A DNA stretch of 31,335 bases, taken from a virus. Both the position numbers and the translations under genes were made by a program. The notes under the pieces were generated by a model that was not told the DNA's origin, made no database searches, and saw only the letters and a program-made list of their open reading frames with translations. Shown here piece after piece: positions 2,599-11,739 of this stretch. Position 1 is the stretch's first letter. Each line of letters starts with the position of its first letter. Location of the stretch: positions 1 through 31,335 of IMG/VR virus record IMGVR_UViG_3300036772_000568. One strand, given 5' to 3'.

Positions 2599-2696
2599 GC
2601 CAATTAATAACCGAATTAATTAATTTCAGAATCAAAAAATGATTCACCGCTGCATAAGTGGTGAAGGATTCGTGCATCAAAAATAAGGGTTTTGAT
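2599..2696. other. AT-rich early gap with two inverted repeats
   Basis: A 98-base gap in an otherwise tightly packed early operon. It holds an AATTAATTAATT palindrome and a hairpin with TTCACC at 2643-2648 and GGTGAA at 2660-2665. There is no T-run, so no intrinsic terminator. It could be an RNA structure or operator; nothing else was found. Confidence 0.35.
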
Positions 2697-2900
2697 ATGT
2701 ACAACATTCGAAGCACAACAGCACGCGCTCATATTTTTGGAATTATGTTCCCTGAAATATCACGCAGAGGAATGACCATCAAATGCAATGAGGGTGAACT
2801 CACTCTCAGCGCTAGCAACCCCGCAGTTATCGCTTTCATTGATGCTTTGCGCCGCGAATTAGACCAGCCGCAACCGCAACACAATTCCGTTTCATTCTAA
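2697..2900 (+). CDS. Hypothetical early protein, 67 aa
   Basis: I do not recognise a family. ATG 2697 is preceded by an AAGGG ribosome-binding site; a longer reading from GTG 2658 would include the upstream hairpin and is unlikely. The sequence suggests two short strands (RGMTIKCNEGELTLSA) and a C-terminal helix (AVIAFIDALRREL), then a Gln/Pro-rich tail. Compact acidic-basic proteins of this size are common in P2-like early regions. It sits 11 bases before the exonuclease gene and is probably co-transcribed with it. Confidence 0.6.
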   Translation: MYNIRSTTARAHIFGIMFPEISRRGMTIKCNEGELTLSASNPAVIAFIDALRRELDQPQPQHNSVSF

Positions 2901-2911
2901 GAGGCCGCTTT

Positions 2912-3493
2912 ATGAATCACGTCATGATTGATATTGAAACTTTAGGTACCAACACCAATGCACCCATTGCCAGTATTGGTGCTGTTTTCTTTGAGCCATC
3001 AACCGGAATTACAGGCGCGCGCTTTTATGTTCGTGTTGATGCTGAAAACGATGAATTAAACGGCGCTGTTGCCAGCGTTGCAACGCTCAAGTGGTGGCTT
3101 CAGCAATCACGCGAGGCGCAAGCAGAGCTATTAGCAAGTGATGCAATACCGCTTTGGGATGCCTTGTGTAAATTTGATAAGTTTCTTACTGATCATGCAG
3201 TTCCAGAGGATTTAGACTTATTACAAGTCTGGGCTAACTCACCAACATTTGACTGTTCCATTTTACGTGCCGCTTATGCCCGCGCTGATCTTGAAGGGCC
3301 GCTCTGGAAGTTTTGGAACGAGCGCGATTGTCGAACAATGGTTGAACTAGGCAAAGTCATTGGCTTTAATCCAAAGCATGACATGTCTTTCAGGGGAGAA
3401 CGCCATAACGCCCTAGCTGATGCAGTGCATCAGGCACAATACGTTTCTCATATTTGGCAGCACCTTACAGCAGATAAGGAGCCAATGTTATGA
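2912..3493 (+). CDS. DEDD-type 3'-5' exonuclease (phage exo, Rv2179c-like)
   Basis: Predicted nuclease of the RNase H-like DEDDh superfamily found in many temperate phage early regions. The 193-residue sequence shows Exo motif I Asp7-Ile-Glu9, motif II around Asn109 to Asp114 (VWANSPTFD) and motif III His165-Asn-Ala-Leu-Ala-Asp170, the four metal-binding acids plus the catalytic histidine. The start has GAGG 8 bases upstream. It overlaps the dam gene by ATGA, so the two are translationally coupled. Likely substrates are DNA or RNA 3' ends; a role in phage DNA metabolism or host takeover is inference. Confidence 0.88.
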   Translation: MNHVMIDIETLGTNTNAPIASIGAVFFEPSTGITGARFYVRVDAENDELNGAVASVATLKWWLQQSREAQAELLASDAIPLWDALCKFDKFLTDHAVPEDLDLLQVWANSPTFDCSILRAAYARADLEGPLWKFWNERDCRTMVELGKVIGFNPKHDMSFRGERHNALADAVHQAQYVSHIWQHLTADKEPML

Positions 3494-4377
3494 GCCGCCC
3501 GATCATCAAGTGGGCAGGCGGTAAAACGCGCGTCCTTCCAGATTTACTGCCATTTTTGCCTAATGCTGATTGCTTAGTTGAACCATTTGTTGGCGGTGCG
3601 TCAGTATTTCTAAATACGGATTATCGCCGCTATATCCTTGCAGATATTAATCCTGATTTAATCGGTTTGTATCGGGCTGTAAAAAAAGATCCAGAGTTAT
3701 TTATCACGATTGCTCGTGCCATGTTTATGGCGGGTAACACGCAAGAAGCATATACAGAATTCCGTAAAAAATTTAATGCATTACCGCAAGGTGAAGAACG
3801 CGCCGCCTTTTTTCTGTATCTAAATCGTCATGGTTATAACGGTGTGTGCCGTTACAACAGCCGAGGCGGTTATAACGTGCCTTATGGTAAGTACAAAAGC
3901 ATTTACTTCCCTGAAGTAGAGATCCGCCAGTTCGCTGAAAAAGCCAACGACACAAAGACTATTTTTTTGTGCTCTCCATTCGAAAGAACCCTGCAAGTTA
4001 TAGAAGGGGTGAGTTGTGCTATCTACTGCGATCCGCCTTATTTACCAGCCAGTAAAACCGCTAATTTTACCCAATACCACAGCGGCACCTTTGCAGCCGA
4101 ACAGCATCGCCAACTAGTAAAGGCGTTAATTGGTGTAAATAAAAAATTCGGCCTTCCAGTCGTGATTTCCAATAGCGATACACCCGCCACACGCGAAATT
4201 TATCACCCCTTTGATTTACATGAAATTACGGTAAATCGCTCTATCAGTGCAAATACAGCTACGAGGGGTACAGCCAAAGAAGTGATCGGCTCATTGCCTC
4301 AGCGTCGCGTTCTGTTTATGGGGTTTGATCCAACTGAATCAGGTGCCGATTACTCGGTGGTTTCCTATGGCAAGTAA
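3490..4377 (+). CDS. dam: DNA adenine methylase (Dam family)
   Basis: N6-adenine methyltransferase of the Dam (D12 class) family, normally methylating GATC. It has 295 residues against 278 for E. coli Dam. Seen: the N-terminal KWAGGK SAM-binding start (7-12), EPFVGG motif I (31-36), the Dam-type LNRHGYNGVCRYN segment (111-123) and the catalytic DPPY tetrad (181-184). It starts inside the exonuclease stop (ATGA) and is followed by the DUF3850 gene. In a phage it can protect DNA from GATC-sensing host enzymes or alter regulation of methylation-sensitive promoters; which applies here is not visible. Confidence 0.95.
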   Translation: MSRPIIKWAGGKTRVLPDLLPFLPNADCLVEPFVGGASVFLNTDYRRYILADINPDLIGLYRAVKKDPELFITIARAMFMAGNTQEAYTEFRKKFNALPQGEERAAFFLYLNRHGYNGVCRYNSRGGYNVPYGKYKSIYFPEVEIRQFAEKANDTKTIFLCSPFERTLQVIEGVSCAIYCDPPYLPASKTANFTQYHSGTFAAEQHRQLVKALIGVNKKFGLPVVISNSDTPATREIYHPFDLHEITVNRSISANTATRGTAKEVIGSLPQRRVLFMGFDPTESGADYSVVSYGK

Positions 4378-4399
4378 AAAAAGGGTGGAGATAAACGCG

Positions 4400-4783
4400 A
4401 TGAAAATTCATGAGTTAAAGATACTACCTGAATATTTTGAGTCAGTTGTCAGTGGCAAGAAGAAAGCAGAGCTAAGGCGCAACGATCGTCATTTCTCTGC
4501 TGGCGACAAACTTTTCCTTAGAGAGTGGAGTTTAGAACATGAATATTCGGGGCTTATCGTAGGGTGCACCATCACTGATGTAGCAGACGTTAGCTCATTG
4601 GCTAAGGGCTATGTGCTTTTGAGTATTGAGCTTCCAGTATTGTCCGGCTCAGATGATGTGGACCATTTTGAATGTTGGTCTTGCAATAAGGTGGTTACAT
4701 ACAAGCAACTCGCTGAAGCTGATGGTTTCTGCCCTTTTTGCTATGCAGAGATAGAGCTTCAACTAAAACCAGCAGACAAGTGA
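4400..4783 (+). CDS. ASCH-like DUF3850 protein with C-terminal zinc ribbon
   Basis: The N-terminal ~75 residues carry the DUF3850 signature (HELKILPEYFESVVSGKK, then ELRRND, then GDKLFLREW), an ASCH/PUA-like fold thought to bind RNA or modified nucleotides. The C-terminal part is different: Cys-x-x-Cys (ECWSCNK) and a second Cys-x-x-Cys (FCPFCYA) about 18 residues later, a probable zinc ribbon. I chose ATG 4400, with GGAG about 9 bases upstream, giving 127 residues; the in-frame ATG at 4367 lies inside dam. It lies between dam and the replication initiator. The biochemical role of DUF3850 is not established; the added ribbon suggests nucleic-acid binding. Confidence 0.75.
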   Translation: MKIHELKILPEYFESVVSGKKKAELRRNDRHFSAGDKLFLREWSLEHEYSGLIVGCTITDVADVSSLAKGYVLLSIELPVLSGSDDVDHFECWSCNKVVTYKQLAEADGFCPFCYAEIELQLKPADK

Positions 4784-4794
4784 TCGGCGCGATA

Positions 4795-7326
4795 ATGGCT
4801 GATATACGCGGACGATATGCCCCAACCCCACCACCAGATTACCCCGGAAGCACATCCGTGCTTACTGGGCCTTATGCGTGGAATGCTCCAGCAAAATCAA
4901 TTAATCCGCTACAGGATGAAACGGATTATGTAGAAACTCCGCTCACCAAAATGATTGCGGATTACCAGCATGATGAAGCTGTCTCGCGCATGATGCGCAT
5001 AGCCGCCATGACTGAAGAAGAAAAAAAAGCCATCAATAAGCGGCAGTACCAAATTGATTTGTCCGAAGAGCATGAGAATGAACTCAATTTGCATCTTGCC
5101 CGTCTCGCGGAGTCTAAAAAGGCGTTACGACTTAGTCCATTATTAGAGATTGCGGCTAACTTAAACGCGCAACCAAAGTTTATACGCCAGCCACTACAGC
5201 AGCGGATTGAGTACCTACGCAGAGAGCATGGCGAACATCGAGCCAATATATTTTTGACTGAAATAGTCGAGAGTGCATTGTCGCGGTTAGAAGCCGTCAG
5301 AGAGAAACAGCTGACTATAGGCTACCGTCATATTGCAGGCCGAGAGCGTCTAGACGAGCTTTTGCGCTTACCGGAGCTGAACAAGCGCGAAGTGCAGACG
5401 CTTGCCGCAATGGTGGCTGCGCATATGGATATGATTTTTTGTGCTCAGGTCGAGTCTAACCTTACTCATGACCATACCCTCGACGCGATTCTACGCGTAT
5501 ATCACGTGGTCGCCGCTGAAGCGCAGCGCTTATGTATACAACCGCCTTACTGGGATTCTCTCAATCCCTATATTCGCCATCGAGAACGTGCCCCCTATGA
5601 CCTATTGCCGGGGGCGTTCTTGCGTCTGCGCTGTGCTGATTGGTGGAAAGGTAAGCTATGGCGATTACGCAATGAATGGCGGGAAGAACAATTACGCGCC
5701 GCGTGCCTTGTTCATAAACATGTTTCCGCCTATGCCAGTCACGATGCGATAGAACGCCAGCGTGAGCAATACCGCCGAACGCTTGAATTCATGCGTATGC
5801 ATGAGCTGGAAAATGAAGACGGTTTCAAGATTGATTTAGAGCAGGTCATGCTGTCCAGTACCAGCAACCCTTATTTACGATATATCGAAATGATGACTAC
5901 CGTTAAGGGGCTGCAAAACTTGGCAGAAATGCGCGGCGATTACGCCATGTTCTATACCATTACGTGCCCGTCCAAGTATCACGCCACGCTTGCAAATGGC
6001 AAGCCTAACCCCAAATGGACTGAAAAAACCGTCCGTGAAAGCAGTGACTATCTGGTTAACGTCTTTTCCAGTATCAGGAAAAAGCTTCAGCGAAAGTGCT
6101 TGCCTTGGTATGGCGTGCGTGTGTCTGAGCCACATCATGACGGAACGGTTCACTGGCATTTGTTGTGCTTTATGCGCCATAGAGATCGCGCCGCCATCAC
6201 TCAGGTGATGCGTGAATTTGCCATTCGTGAGGATCGTGCTGAGTTAGGCAAGAACGTGAGAGCGCGGTTTGATGTTGTGCCAGTCACTAAAAGAAAAGGT
6301 TCACCTGCGAGTTATATCGCGACTTACATCGGTAAAAATATTGGTGGCGGCTCACTGGATAAGGCTCAAGACAAGAAAACGGGTAAACCGGCCATATGTA
6401 AAGAGACGGGTAAACCCCTTGCCGATAACAGTGATAATGCCGTCGCTTGGGCAAGTTTGCACAGGGTTAAGCAGTTTCAATTCTTTGGCGTTCCATCGCG
6501 TCAAACCTATCGAGAATTGCGCCGGTTGGCTAATCAGCTGCAGCGTGAACTTAAGCCCAAAAAAGGGGCTCAGCTTCTGCAAGATAAGCAGATGAATGAT
6601 GTGCTTGCAGCCGCAGATGCGGGATGTTTTGCAACTTACGCCATTAAGCAAGGTGGGGTTATGCGACCCCGCAACGAGCATGTGATCCGCACAGCCTACG
6701 CATTATCTGAAACCCCGAACGATTACGGCGAGATAAGCCCGCGTATCTATGGCGTCTATTCGCCGCGCCTGGGCGATGACTCTCGCATTTGTACCCATAG
6801 CGAAACGTGGAAGTTAGTCAAAAAATCAAAAAGCAGCGCCCATGAACTTAAAGCCAGCAAAGCTGGCGCAGGGGTTGACCTTGGCCCTTCAGGGGTTCCG
6901 CCCTCACTTGGACTCGTGGCAATAACTGTCCGTCCGTCTGAAAAACAACCAGTTCCAAAAGCAAAAAAAAGGACTGAAAAACATCTAAATTTGGAGAGTT
7001 TAGACGATCTAACTAGAGCTCAAAGGCGTGAGCTATTGCATCAGCTTAGGAAACAATCGAGAAAGCCTATGGCTGTTCAGCCAACTGAGGAAGGTGAAAA
7101 TAAAGCTCAGTTGATATCAAAGATTGATGGTTTCACCAAATCAATTGGCTGGCTGATTTCAAATCATGCATTACACCGGTTGGCATATGGTTATATTGTT
7201 AATATTGAAGGGAAAAGCTATCGTGCTGATCACCATGGCAATATTCGGCAATGTAAGCCTAGTTATGGGGAGCGTGCACGTAATTTAATGAAGGTAATTG
7301 CAAGAATCTCGCATAAGATTAGGTAG
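4795..7326 (+). CDS. A: Replication initiator gpA (HUH endonuclease, rolling circle)
   Basis: Starts rolling-circle replication by nicking the phage origin and joining covalently to the 5' end. The start at ATG 4795 gives 843 residues (P2 A is 761). Seen: the HUH metal motif as His453-Trp-His455 and the twin active-site tyrosines Tyr507 and Tyr511 (Y-I-A-T-Y), the P2/phiX174 two-tyrosine arrangement, followed by the Lys-rich region of the family. In P2 the origin lies inside A itself; I could not locate the nick site by eye. From about 6890 the base composition turns AT-rich and the C-terminal ~145 residues look poorly conserved, with a basic helix and a low-complexity Lys/Arg stretch, which suggests a variable or exchanged tail next to the accessory gene. 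Confidence 0.93.
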   Translation: MADIRGRYAPTPPPDYPGSTSVLTGPYAWNAPAKSINPLQDETDYVETPLTKMIADYQHDEAVSRMMRIAAMTEEEKKAINKRQYQIDLSEEHENELNLHLARLAESKKALRLSPLLEIAANLNAQPKFIRQPLQQRIEYLRREHGEHRANIFLTEIVESALSRLEAVREKQLTIGYRHIAGRERLDELLRLPELNKREVQTLAAMVAAHMDMIFCAQVESNLTHDHTLDAILRVYHVVAAEAQRLCIQPPYWDSLNPYIRHRERAPYDLLPGAFLRLRCADWWKGKLWRLRNEWREEQLRAACLVHKHVSAYASHDAIERQREQYRRTLEFMRMHELENEDGFKIDLEQVMLSSTSNPYLRYIEMMTTVKGLQNLAEMRGDYAMFYTITCPSKYHATLANGKPNPKWTEKTVRESSDYLVNVFSSIRKKLQRKCLPWYGVRVSEPHHDGTVHWHLLCFMRHRDRAAITQVMREFAIREDRAELGKNVRARFDVVPVTKRKGSPASYIATYIGKNIGGGSLDKAQDKKTGKPAICKETGKPLADNSDNAVAWASLHRVKQFQFFGVPSRQTYRELRRLANQLQRELKPKKGAQLLQDKQMNDVLAAADAGCFATYAIKQGGVMRPRNEHVIRTAYALSETPNDYGEISPRIYGVYSPRLGDDSRICTHSETWKLVKKSKSSAHELKASKAGAGVDLGPSGVPPSLGLVAITVRPSEKQPVPKAKKRTEKHLNLESLDDLTRAQRRELLHQLRKQSRKPMAVQPTEEGENKAQLISKIDGFTKSIGWLISNHALHRLAYGYIVNIEGKSYRADHHGNIRQCKPSYGERARNLMKVIARISHKIR

Positions 7327-7420
7327 ACATTATCAGTGTGTTAAGTATTGCAATGTGCGTTATCTCGCAGTAGAGGGGCAAGAAGTAGATGAAACATATG
7401 ACAAGATGATTAGTATTTAG
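7298..7420 (+). other. Possible 40-codon ORF or gene remnant overlapping A and the 961-aa gene
   Basis: A reading frame from TTG 7298 (or GTG 7355) to TAG 7418-7420 overlaps the end of A and meets the accessory gene at TAGTG. The peptide end (AVEGQEVDETYDKMISI) has ordinary protein-like composition, unlike random AT-rich sequence. It has no good ribosome-binding site. It may be a short leader that couples translation into the large gene, or the degraded end of a lost gene. Low confidence. Confidence 0.18.
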
Positions 7421-10305
7421 TGAGAATGGAAGTATCATTGGTAGTGCTACTGCTGATTCGCAGTACTTATGAGGCGAAATTAGTCAAAAAAATTGGGTCA
7501 ACGCTCGGTAATGAATTGGAATGGTTGGGGGAACAGGTGCAAGAAATAAATAGTAAGAAAATAAACTTCAGTCCTATTATTGGGGAGGTTAGAAGAATTA
7601 TATCCTTTTACTTAGTTATAACTTCATTGGGACTTTTAGGACTGTTTTTTTCTCAGTTTTTTTCTGTTCCATATAACTATTTATTTATTACACCTTCATT
7701 TTTTAATAGCGAATCTTTGAACTGGACTATGGGGGTATGGGGAACCGTACTAAGTTTGCATGGCACAATAGCTGCATTATCTATCACTTTCATGGGAGTG
7801 TTTGTCTCACAGGTGTCTGAGTATTCTGAGCACGGTTTTGAATCTGTATGCAGGGTCCTTTTGCTTCGCGAAAATAAGTTCCTCAATTTTAGCATTGAGT
7901 CTATAAGTGGTTTGATATGTGGGATTGTTTTGCTGGCTTTTGGTACAGGACTCATAGCCTACTTAACCTCAATGTTAATATCATTGTACTTTATAACTTC
8001 ATATGGAGTAATGTATTATCGACTTTATAATTTAACAGAGAGACCAGAGTTTATTACTGAATTGCTTTTTATGGATTTGAAAAGAACTGGATTGGAATAC
8101 GATTCAATATTATTGAAGAAGGTGAGTGTTAATGATGATTTCCATAAGCTTATTGCTAGTAAAATAAATCTGGCTGAAAGTGAAAATGCATATTCTTATC
8201 GTTCAATACCTTTAAATATATTCTCAGAATTAGATGGTGAGTTATTATCCGGCTTTTCTCCCGAACAATTTCAAAAAATTGATGATGAAGTCGGAAGGTT
8301 AAGGGGAACTCTAGACTTACATCTGGTTTTTAGATTGAACTTCTACTCTCCGCTAACAAGTTCTAGCATTGAAATTAGATTGCCGGAAGAGCAATGTGTT
8401 GATGACGCCATAATTTACAAATTAGAGGGGGTAGTTAAAGATGCGCTTTTTTTTGAAAACACTACTGATATATTTCAACGCTTTGAGCAGTTGGAGAAGT
8501 CATTAATCCAAAATATAAAAAATGCGTTGCTATCCGGTAATGAATGGGGATTAGAATTTGGTGTTAATGCATTTGGTGATCTTTCTTCTGGAGTCAGCTT
8601 TGTTCATACGTTACAAAAGTTAGATCTTTCAATAAGCTCATCAAGTAAAAAAAACTGTGTCGATTACAATATTCTTGTAAAATTCCTTGATAAATTACTG
8701 TTGAAGTCCTATGAACAGAAAAAAACAGACAATGCTTTGAATGCATTGAGGGGGATTATTGATTTTGCAAGATATATATATACTCATGAGTATTTTTATG
8801 AGTTTTACAAGGGGATTTCGCCTCATTTAGAGAATAGTGCAAGGTATAAGTCACCTGAGGGTGACGAGGGTTTTTTGGATTTCTATATCTCAACAACAAC
8901 ACAAAACTTAGTTGCAAAAAACTATAGAGCTTTTGATTTAAATACTAAATTTATTACTGAGCGAATGCAATATCTTAATAATAATGAAAGAGAGCATTTA
9001 AGTAGCATGCAGAGAAAATTACTCATGTGTGTGAAGGAAATTCTAACATTATTAATTATTAGAATGGAGCATGTGCGTAAAAATCAAAGTGATAATTTAG
9101 ATGAGATATCTACTTTGCAGGGGTTTATTAAATCTTGGGTTAATGCTAGTTTTTTAGTCGAGGTTTATTATAAAAGCGAAACATATGATATTTTATTTAA
9201 GATTCCTGATGATTTCTCAATGTTTAATGCTGAGCGATCTATGAGGGATGTTTCTGATGGTGAGGCGGCTTGGGTTTCCATTAGGAATGATACATACAAA
9301 ACACTTGCTATTATCTTGAGTGCGTCAGACTTTAATCGAAATAGATTAAATCTAATTTTTTTACGTGATACAGATGAGTTTTTGTCTAAAACAAAAATTA
9401 ATACTCATGATATAAAGTCAATTGTAGATTTTTTACGTGGAGATGATTATAAAGAGTTAATGTCTAAAATTTCAGCTAACGCTCTCACTAATAGTAATTA
9501 TAAGAACTTGACAGCCAAACTGGAAGAGTTAGTTAGTAACATAAACAAGATTATAATCAAGGGTATCTCACAAGAAGATTTAAAGCCTGATTTAGTTGAG
9601 AAGTATAAAACTGAATTTAATCTTTCTTTTGAGAGGTTTATTGGAAAAATAATCAAGCTTAATGACGTATCTTTTGGAGAGTTTGATAATGAAAAGATTT
9701 ATTCTTCATTAATCGATAAGAGGGAGGTTCTGAACTCTGTTGATGGAGTGCATTATTCAATGAATGCAGGTCATCATGGACAATCTGCTGTTTATTCATG
9801 GGTTAGAAAACTATTAGGAAGCCTTAGTGTAAAAGAAAATAATATTGTGAATTTATATAATATTAGTGAACTGCAAGGTAAGGAACTTGTTACTGTTGAG
9901 TATAAAATAAGTGATGGAGTGGATGTTTATCATTATAGTAAAGGGTTGAGGATGACAGATAAGGATGGTGTGTTAAGCTTCCCTCTCCCTGGTTTATATT
10001 ACGTGGACTTAACAGAGTGTTATTCTTTCTGGCGTAAGAAAGAGATTGTAGATGTTTATATTACTAAGATAAATAATGAAAACTCAGAAAGTTTTCAGGA
10101 TAGATTTAATTTGACAGGAGTTAACCCTCTTCTGTATGCATCTATAGATGCATTCATTAATATAAATGCAGAGTTAAGAGAATCATTTAATATTTATTAT
10201 TTGTCAGAGAGTAAATGTAAAACATTGAATGAGGAAAATACTGTAGAGATGCAACAACTTACAGATATGAGGAATCTACCAACAGAAGGAGATGAAATTT
10301 CTTGA
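7420..10305 (+). CDS. Unknown 961-aa membrane-anchored protein at the P2 tin/old accessory locus
   Basis: No family recognised. The N-terminal ~205 residues contain three to four hydrophobic segments (about 61-82, 108-129, 162-182 and 185-202). The remaining ~755 residues are soluble: a long, mainly helical, Lys/Glu/Asn-rich middle, then HHG (785-787) and a C-terminal part with beta-like strands (LSFPLPGLYYVDL near 865). I see no Walker, nuclease, protease, TIR or HEPN motif. GTG 7420 follows an in-frame stop at 7411; ATG 7426 is an alternative, and both have weak ribosome-binding sites. The gene is far more AT-rich than the structural genes, with frequent ATA and AGA codons. It is alone between A and the cos region, exactly where P2 has tin and old, so a phage-exclusion or lysogenic-conversion role is the best inference, by position and not by homology. 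Confidence 0.85.
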   Translation: MRMEVSLVVLLLIRSTYEAKLVKKIGSTLGNELEWLGEQVQEINSKKINFSPIIGEVRRIISFYLVITSLGLLGLFFSQFFSVPYNYLFITPSFFNSESLNWTMGVWGTVLSLHGTIAALSITFMGVFVSQVSEYSEHGFESVCRVLLLRENKFLNFSIESISGLICGIVLLAFGTGLIAYLTSMLISLYFITSYGVMYYRLYNLTERPEFITELLFMDLKRTGLEYDSILLKKVSVNDDFHKLIASKINLAESENAYSYRSIPLNIFSELDGELLSGFSPEQFQKIDDEVGRLRGTLDLHLVFRLNFYSPLTSSSIEIRLPEEQCVDDAIIYKLEGVVKDALFFENTTDIFQRFEQLEKSLIQNIKNALLSGNEWGLEFGVNAFGDLSSGVSFVHTLQKLDLSISSSSKKNCVDYNILVKFLDKLLLKSYEQKKTDNALNALRGIIDFARYIYTHEYFYEFYKGISPHLENSARYKSPEGDEGFLDFYISTTTQNLVAKNYRAFDLNTKFITERMQYLNNNEREHLSSMQRKLLMCVKEILTLLIIRMEHVRKNQSDNLDEISTLQGFIKSWVNASFLVEVYYKSETYDILFKIPDDFSMFNAERSMRDVSDGEAAWVSIRNDTYKTLAIILSASDFNRNRLNLIFLRDTDEFLSKTKINTHDIKSIVDFLRGDDYKELMSKISANALTNSNYKNLTAKLEELVSNINKIIIKGISQEDLKPDLVEKYKTEFNLSFERFIGKIIKLNDVSFGEFDNEKIYSSLIDKREVLNSVDGVHYSMNAGHHGQSAVYSWVRKLLGSLSVKENNIVNLYNISELQGKELVTVEYKISDGVDVYHYSKGLRMTDKDGVLSFPLPGLYYVDLTECYSFWRKKEIVDVYITKINNENSESFQDRFNLTGVNPLLYASIDAFININAELRESFNIYYLSESKCKTLNEENTVEMQQLTDMRNLPTEGDEIS

Positions 10306-10358: not shown

Positions 10359-10455
10359 TGCACAAAAGTGCACAGATTTGCACAATTTTTTTGATGCTGT
10401 TTATGCACTTTCTACCCTTTGGTGGTGCGGTCTGGCTCCAGATCGGCAAATGCAC
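10359..10455. repeat. Iterated TGCACA sites, three on an exact 10-base phase
   Basis: TGCACA starts at 10359, 10369 and 10379, one DNA helical turn apart, with further TGCAC at 10404 and TGCACA at 10451. They lie within 130 bases upstream of the candidate cos cut site and between genes. Phased short repeats on one face of the helix usually mark a multi-subunit protein-binding site. Here terminase (gpM/gpP) docking, equivalent to lambda cosB, or replication control are the likely roles; this is inference. Confidence 0.6.
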
Positions 10456-10481: not shown

Positions 10482-10500
10482 GGTGACGGGGGGACAGCCC
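10482..10500. other. cos: Candidate cos site (19-base cohesive end)
   Basis: The sequence GGTGACGGGGGGACAGCCC matches the P2/P4 19-base cohesive end (GGCGAGGCGGGGAAAGCAC, from memory) at 14 of 19 positions, with the same length, G-rich centre and ending. It lies in the only gene-free stretch longer than 300 bases (10306-10683), directly beyond the end of gene Q, as in P2. The bases that follow (GCGCGGTGGGGG) are again G-rich. Terminase would make staggered cuts here to give packaged linear DNA. The rest of the 378-base gap shows only the TGCACA repeats and a small hairpin. Confidence 0.75.
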
Positions 10501-10660
10501 GCGCGGTGGGGGGGATAGGGGGATGGTCTCAAATATTGATAAATTGGCGTTCTTTTGGCGTAATGCGGCGTTTTTGGTGTGTGGGATGGGTAGGGGTGAG
10601 ATTAAGGATAGGTGTGCTTAGAATTGCGCTGGTGCGCTGTGTGGCTGTGCGTGGATAGTC

Positions 10661-10683: not shown

Positions 10684-11739
10684 TTATTTACTGGTTTCAA
10701 GTAGGGCATAAGGTTTAAAGCGGATCACCTCTTCCCCAAGCCAGTCGTTTACATGCTTCAGCGCTTCCATTGCGGGCATCAGCTCATTGATAGCAAACAC
10801 GCGCGCGGCCTTTTCCACGTCACCGAATGAGCCATTACCATCAGGCATGGCCCCCATCAGTTGTGGTGGTACGCGGTGCGCCGCTAGGATGTCATCGCGG
10901 GTTACAGACTTGATATTAAGAAATTCATCTTTTGCGGAAATCTGGCTGAAGGGCATGAGTTGCACTCCATCTTTACCGCCGCCTGGTGCGTGTAATAGTA
11001 GGTTTTTAAATGCCCCTTTTCCACGTGCATCAGTGAGCGTTTTTTTAATACTCTTCATGCTCTCATCATCCACGGTTGAAGCACCAATGTAGAGAATGCA
11101 TCCAGCGTGAGAGCCATTTTCATAGTACATTTTACGGAACATATCGGCGGAGTGTGACAGACTGGCTGACAACAGCGCGCCCATGTATTCCGGCATTCCG
11201 TAGATCTCCTGGTGAATATCTGGGTTAAGAACGTGGCAAACCGAGCCAGTCTTAAAAGCAAATTCATCTTTCCATTGACGTATAAACCAATAAGTATCCA
11301 GATCACTTCCCCGGCGGGTGTATTTCGCTGGAGAGATACGCATGGGAAGCCGCCCGCCGAGGCGGTTTTTTCGTTCTTCCAAATAGAAATTACCAAATAC
11401 AAACCAATCGAGCGCAAGCGCGGAAAATGTTTGGCGTGATAACAGTGGGTGCGGTATGAAACAGCCAGCCAGGGCATTGCGTTTGAAGTACAGCGCCGAC
11501 TGATGCCACGATGCCTGACCAAACGAGCGAGCCAGGCCGTACCAGTCAACAGGGGTTTCATAGTATCTGCCGTTATCCGCACAGTACATATTATCGAGTA
11601 GGTCATGTGCGCCGGTGACCTGGTAAGGCCCATCAAACGTGAAGGCGCTGAGGGACGGATCGCGCTTTATCGTTTCGCCAATATCGGTTTTGTTATCAGT
11701 AAGCATTGTTAAGCCGCTTTCGTTTGTTGTTGTATTCAT
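10684..11739 (-). CDS. Q: Capsid portal protein gpQ
   Basis: Portal ring subunit at the unique capsid vertex, through which terminase packages DNA and to which the tail joins. It has 351 residues (P2 Q is 344). Family hallmarks seen: the region LLDNMYCADNGRYYETPVDW, the basic HQSALYFKRNAL segment, FGNFYLEERKNRLG, the HLLNPD-like VCHVLNPDIHQEIYG, and the C-terminal DDILAAHRVPPQLMG motif typical of PBSX/P2 portals. The start codon overlaps the P stop (TAATG), so P and Q are coupled and transcribed leftward from the late promoter in the P-O gap. Confidence 0.97.
   Translation of the reverse strand: MNTTTNESGLTMLTDNKTDIGETIKRDPSLSAFTFDGPYQVTGAHDLLDNMYCADNGRYYETPVDWYGLARSFGQASWHQSALYFKRNALAGCFIPHPLLSRQTFSALALDWFVFGNFYLEERKNRLGGRLPMRISPAKYTRRGSDLDTYWFIRQWKDEFAFKTGSVCHVLNPDIHQEIYGMPEYMGALLSASLSHSADMFRKMYYENGSHAGCILYIGASTVDDESMKSIKKTLTDARGKGAFKNLLLHAPGGGKDGVQLMPFSQISAKDEFLNIKSVTRDDILAAHRVPPQLMGAMPDGNGSFGDVEKAARVFAINELMPAMEALKHVNDWLGEEVIRFKPYALLETSK

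Follow-up and report, generated by a model that had tools for sequence, protein, structure and literature searches.

A membrane protein with a predicted HK97 capsid-like domain between gpA and gpQ of P2-like phages: a candidate single-gene exclusion system

The stretch of DNA analysed here, referred to as the window, spans 31,335 nucleotides and is the IMG/VR record of a P2-like phage. Judged by head-region DNA, the nearest annotated relative is Enterobacter phage phiT5282H, with about 73% identity. The window carries a sole long gene, at 7420..10305 (+), between the gene of the replication initiation protein gpA (4738..7326, +; phrog_91, E 6.5e-226) and that of the portal protein gpQ (10684..11739, -; phrog_68, E 2.6e-148), the left and right anchors of the slot, respectively. 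With these flanks, the proposal of the earlier note that the gene stands alone in the P2 tin/old accessory slot is upheld as to both the identity of the slot and its single-gene content. Its description of the slot as a hotspot of antiviral genes in P2-like prophages also agrees with the literature, in which the gpA-gpQ slot of P2-like phages is a hotspot of anti-phage systems including tin and old (PMC9122126, PMC9519451). The position of the gene supports a defence role without proving it. The gene had further been placed between A and cos. The A side of this placement is correct; the canonical P2 cos 19-mer has no match in the window, though a GC-rich stretch lies where cos is expected, at about 10490..10520 (no strand assigned). 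Similarity between the window and its closest relative, locus L002, ends at this stretch, which is the probable cos region and recombination joint; the break was probably caused by recombination at or near cos.

The ORF list gives the gene as a single open frame of 961 codons from GTG to position 10305. GTG 7420 is the upper bound of this frame, and the likeliest start is GTG 7537, which leaves a gene at 7537..10305 (+) for a protein of 922 amino acids. The later start is preferred because the TGG at 7523 in the window is an in-frame TAG in the 99%-identical L002, because alignments place the starts of relatives at the equivalent of GTG 7537, about 39 codons 3' of GTG 7420, and because GGGGGAACA lies directly upstream of GTG 7537. 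The first 39 codons are thus probably untranslated; the frame reported earlier stands, while its length of 961 residues gives way, in view of the L002 stop, to about 922. Residue numbers below refer to the 922-residue protein unless the 961-codon frame is stated. The gene had been noticed for its AT-rich composition, and it has indeed 32% GC compared with 48.5% in the remainder of the record. A chance ORF is ruled out since 11 more loci encode relatives and dN/dS in close pairs is about 0.10-0.14 overall, indicating purifying selection throughout. A promoter scan of the upstream region gave nothing better than chance. On the 3' side, GTGCACAGATTTGCACAATTTTTTTG at 10368..10390 (+) is a candidate intrinsic terminator, proposed from a consensus match only.

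All 11 relatives are full length; their identity to the window protein is 99% for L002 and 25-43% for the other ten. Scans of IMG/VR with growing alignments yielded L002, L008-L014, L021, and L042, and the species genomes of GTDB added L015, from Pantoea allii. The family genes measured have 30-32% GC against 48-54% in their surroundings. Locus neighbours were recognised from ORFs by eye, and most of them also by alignment. In nine of the 12 loci (the window, L002, L008, L009, L010, L012, L013, L021, and L042), the gene has gpA on one side and the portal gene on the other. The tenth locus, L014 (5295-13735), is a prophage remnant in which gpA and an intact family gene are followed by a truncated gpD and then by host ptsG, the head genes being lost. 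In L011, the family gene (2686-5484, +) lies between an RdgC-like gene (1270-2085, -) and a tail sheath gene (7097-8290, -), an arrangement that reflects either prophage rearrangement or a second type of genomic location. L015 (8919-12742) belongs to the chromosome of Pantoea allii. A folD-like gene and tRNA-Arg (tct) lie upstream of it, and no P2 genes surround it; here the family gene adjoins a transposase-like ORF (both folD and the transposase were named by eye).

The earlier note had also suggested a new family. The absence of the protein from Pfam, NCBIfam, and PADLOC agrees with this suggestion, yet PHROGs already holds two function-less families that the window protein matches, phrog_10073 and phrog_18005 (E 1.8e-146 and 7.5e-72; residues 179-936 and 70-411 of the 961-codon frame, respectively). 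Searches of Pfam, NCBIfam, and PDB sequences with the whole protein as well as the C-terminal domain returned chance-level matches only. No member was found by tblastn in INPHARED phages or PLSDB plasmids, with divergent relatives also used as queries, or by blastn in E. coli genomes. The family is considered rare because a survey of Enterobacterales comprising 395 (order), 392 (family), and 61 (genus) genomes returned only the Pantoea allii seed. Proteins made of the membrane part alone or of the C-terminal part alone were looked for and none was found.

The content of the slot in relatives, which the earlier note had wished to see surveyed, was informative. In phiT5282H (NC_049429.1; L006, 15769-19052), PADLOC identified IetA (E 1.9e-88) and IetS (E 1.9e-41) in the gpA-portal slot, the same spot that is occupied by the family gene in the window. 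The backbones are closely similar, with 87% identity in gpA between L012 and phiT5282H and 99% identity in the portal protein between L002 and phiT5282H. IetAS is a known defence system, and because near-identical backbones have it in this slot, one cassette can take the place of another. Between the window and L002, identity is 98% in gpA and 99% in the family gene, compared with 72% in the portal protein; therefore, the left arm and its cassette travel as one unit relative to the head genes. The phiT5282H record annotates the IetA/IetS pair merely as AAA ATPase and S8 peptidase. In another P2-like relative, L025 (Klebsiella, CP052639), the slot has one small opposite-strand gene (6663-7115, -) without a PADLOC match.

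The family gene is missing from relatives that have full structural gene sets, and it is intact in the L014 remnant and in the Pantoea chromosome near tRNA-Arg; on this comparison of loci, it is dispensable for phage growth. These loci bear on the improbable explanation that the gene is non-defensive, serving lysogenic conversion or host fitness, or helping the phage, though not indispensably, to assemble its own heads at the membrane. Such a gene would not be out of place, as P2 hotspots also carry non-defence genes, for example partition genes (PMC9122126). However, the exchange with IetAS, the headless L014, the chromosomal L015 without P2 genes, and the absence of the gene from head-complete relatives all weigh against a role in the carrier's own assembly.

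The protein is predicted to consist of an N-terminal membrane part, a small alpha/beta segment, a helical-repeat region, and a C-terminal domain. Three to four N-terminal membrane segments had been noticed before; hydropathy, AlphaFold2 helices, and charge counts over 11 sequences agree on four, at residues of about 22-43, 68-90, 115-134, and 140-158 (7600..8010, +). The predicted topology is N-in/C-in with the remainder of the protein in the cytoplasm, in line with the membrane anchor and large cytoplasmic part envisaged earlier. The core of the second helix (TM2; residues 75-93, 7759..7815, +) is near-invariant and reads HGTIAALSITFM-x-x-FV-x-QV. Its 12 consecutive residues from H75 to M86, together with F89, V90, Q92, and V93, do not vary among 11 sequences whose overall identity goes down to 25%. 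By AlphaFold2 secondary structure, residues 216-310 (8182..8466, +) form the small alpha/beta segment, which is the least conserved part of the protein, and the AlphaFold2 model shows helical repeats at residues 311-640 (8467..9456, +). Within the latter region, residues 555-621 are modelled at low confidence, yet they are conserved. A ZorA/MotA-like channel was considered and rejected, as PADLOC matched ZorA in one of eight members (E 6.5e-4) and in none of the others, and the slot contains neither zorB nor other partner genes.

The soluble part had been described as lacking any recognisable motif, but its last approximately 210 residues carry a predicted HK97 capsid-like fold. This domain was delimited to residues 681-890 (9577..10206, +) by AlphaFold2 and structure searches. 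In the full-length model (pLDDT 71.2), the fold search returned mostly generic helical repeats, and residues 681-890 already matched encapsulin-type entries. Residues 640-922 (9454-10302) were also modelled alone, from a shallow alignment of 11 sequences, with a pLDDT of 87.5 and a pTM of 0.80. With this model, the 50 PDB entries listed by VIA-align are without exception proteins with the HK97 fold or engineered cages derived from such proteins, the encapsulin entries among them being many copies of one family. The best match among those listed is the Pyrococcus virus-like particle 2e0z, with Z 8.8 and 4.1 A over 161 residues, where a best Z of 7 to 8 is typical for models without a clear match. 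Encapsulin entries score about 6-8 (7bcv 8.2), followed by P22 (7.2), T7 (7.0), T5 (6.7), HK97 (5.3), and T4 gp24, phi29, and 80alpha (4.8 each). The listed matches have an rmsd of 4-6 A and about 10% identity. For comparison, a model of a true capsid protein is reported to match HK97 with a DALI z of about 17 (PMC9712102). Furthermore, a Foldseek search of predicted viral proteins in BFVD gave named matches that are nearly all capsid or head proteins; four matches reach E 1e-3 or better.

Both profile and structure-model searches had been proposed by the earlier note, and they diverged: the structures yielded these HK97-fold matches, whereas Pfam, PDB-sequence, and profile-profile comparisons yielded no capsid-protein similarity. 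When 11 members were scanned with Pfam up to E 10, Linocin_M18 (encapsulin) was not matched, and hhalign returned 0.25% for it. The domain scored 0.2% against gpN by hhalign, and the control pair of gpN and encapsulin also scored just 0.4%; since the control fails likewise, profile-profile comparison is powerless here. The HK97 match might still be a false resemblance of a mixed alpha/beta domain, in a membrane exclusion protein that senses by other means. The middling Z scores, the rmsd of several angstroms, the low identity, and the missing sequence support would all suit this explanation. It is nevertheless unlikely, because no other fold occurs among the 50 PDB entries listed, which span very different HK97 shells, because BFVD by a separate method gives nearly all capsids, and because the full-length model yields the same encapsulins. 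The C-terminal domain probably has an HK97-like fold, as modelled.

The rates of change differ along the protein. With the exception of window/L002, each close pair shows its highest dN/dS (0.15-0.20) in the C-terminal domain, and the value for the membrane part is the lowest or close to it. This pattern fits a recognition end at the C-terminus and an effector end in the membrane. Mean pairwise identity is 37% for residues 216-310, 45% for the HK97-like domain, 56% for the membrane part, and 58% for residues 520-640. Recognition could also lie in the alpha/beta segment 216-310 because it is more variable than the HK97-like domain; from its variability, this segment could be the recognition part or a second recognition element. 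HK97-fold subunits are known to form pentamers and hexamers. An anti-phage membrane protein could use its HK97-like domain as a ring-forming scaffold of five or six copies, with the helices forming a channel and the helical arm or the alpha/beta segment sensing another trigger. This alternative is not very probable, though it accommodates the greater conservation of residues 520-640 and the greater variability of residues 216-310 relative to the HK97-like domain, and the slot location and IetAS exchange fit it equally. However, a domain that served only as a scaffold would be less expected to change fastest of the three thirds, as the C-terminal domain does in most close pairs.

From the gene, its family, its slot, and its exchange with IetAS, all of which are observed, together with the predicted topology and fold, we infer defence activity, a capsid trigger, and membrane damage. 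The proposal of the earlier note, an exclusion system in which the cytoplasmic part may sense infection and the membrane part may act as effector, has partial support. The best reading, to which we give a probability of roughly 0.4, is a single-gene, membrane-anchored exclusion or abortive-infection protein that is carried as a swappable gpA-gpQ cassette and whose capsid-like domain engages the capsid protein of an invader. The four N-terminal helices would anchor the protein in the inner membrane and leave the rest in the cytoplasm, where the helical-repeat arm would present the C-terminal capsid-fold domain. Upon infection by another phage, this domain would pair with the invader's freshly synthesised capsid subunits or capsomers. 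The pairing would cluster the anchored molecules so that the conserved TM2 bundle leaks or depolarises the membrane, and the cell would stop before progeny release. Capture of subunits at the membrane may additionally spoil assembly directly. Co-assembly with invader subunits is proposed as the trigger because the predicted capsid-fold domain would sit in the cytoplasm, tethered to a membrane bundle. On this reading, the protein would need to ignore or tolerate the capsid of its own carrier phage. Newly made capsid protein is an established trigger of CapRel (PMC9712102) and of Thoeris ThsB1/B2 in Staphylococcus (PMC11312562).

The capsid-like fold tied to a membrane could also act without killing the cell, by poisoning the virion assembly of a competitor while the anchor keeps partial shells at the membrane. 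Assembly inhibition by a prophage has been demonstrated for the prophage Tab protein, which blocks tail assembly and has a comparable outcome (PMC10884400). However, the near-invariant TM2 core and the helical arm of 300 residues would be left unexplained, and the ORF list of the window contains no adjoining anti-protein gene to spare the carrier's own capsid. Simple assembly poisoning is considered improbable, and the exclusion or abortive-infection protein remains the preferred reading. The new element of the analysis is the predicted capsid-like domain, which is the best clue to what the protein senses or blocks. With this domain, the idea can be put to the test through escape mutants and the deletion of domains, and a cassette that is small and single makes the function easy to test. 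If the preferred reading is true, a virus structural fold has been turned into a weapon between phages. Its specificity would follow a simple rule, namely whose subunits can co-assemble. Moreover, deletions could separate sensing from membrane killing within a single-gene system.

Among known systems, the P2 gpA-gpQ cassettes (tin, old, IetAS, and others) resemble the family gene in location, and all are single, AT-rich, and exchangeable cassettes. As to a match with Tin or with Old (OLD-family nuclease/ATPase), the Pfam, NCBIfam, and PADLOC profiles gave the family protein nothing beyond noise. By profile, phrog_10073 and phrog_18005 are the same family, for which PHROGs gives neither function, topology, nor fold. 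Encapsulins (Linocin_M18) are stand-alone shell proteins of about 265-280 amino acids. Residues 681-890 share their predicted fold, along with that of HK97 capsids, and span nearly the whole encapsulin chain; unlike encapsulins, the family domain forms the end of a 922-residue membrane protein with a helical arm and four TM helices. Capsid proteins are known to set off several immune systems of bacteria; in the open literature searched, no defence protein with a capsid fold of its own, membrane-fixed or otherwise, was found. Fv1 is a mouse retrovirus restriction factor derived from viral Gag. It offers an analogy only, that of a capsid-derived host factor acting against invading capsids, as the fold and the virus realm differ and Fv1 has no membrane effector. 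By this analogy, the family might be a bacterial counterpart of capsid-derived restriction factors such as Fv1, with a domesticated HK97-fold domain serving as bait or sensor for rival capsids and capsid pairing leading to membrane damage, a tentative and rather doubtful proposition. The likeness to CapRel-SJ46 and Thoeris ThsB1/B2 lies in the proposed capsid-protein trigger (PMC9712102, PMC11312562). However, the CapRel-SJ46 and Thoeris sensors bind capsid protein via other domains, whereas the family sensor would itself be capsid-fold and its effector a membrane bundle.
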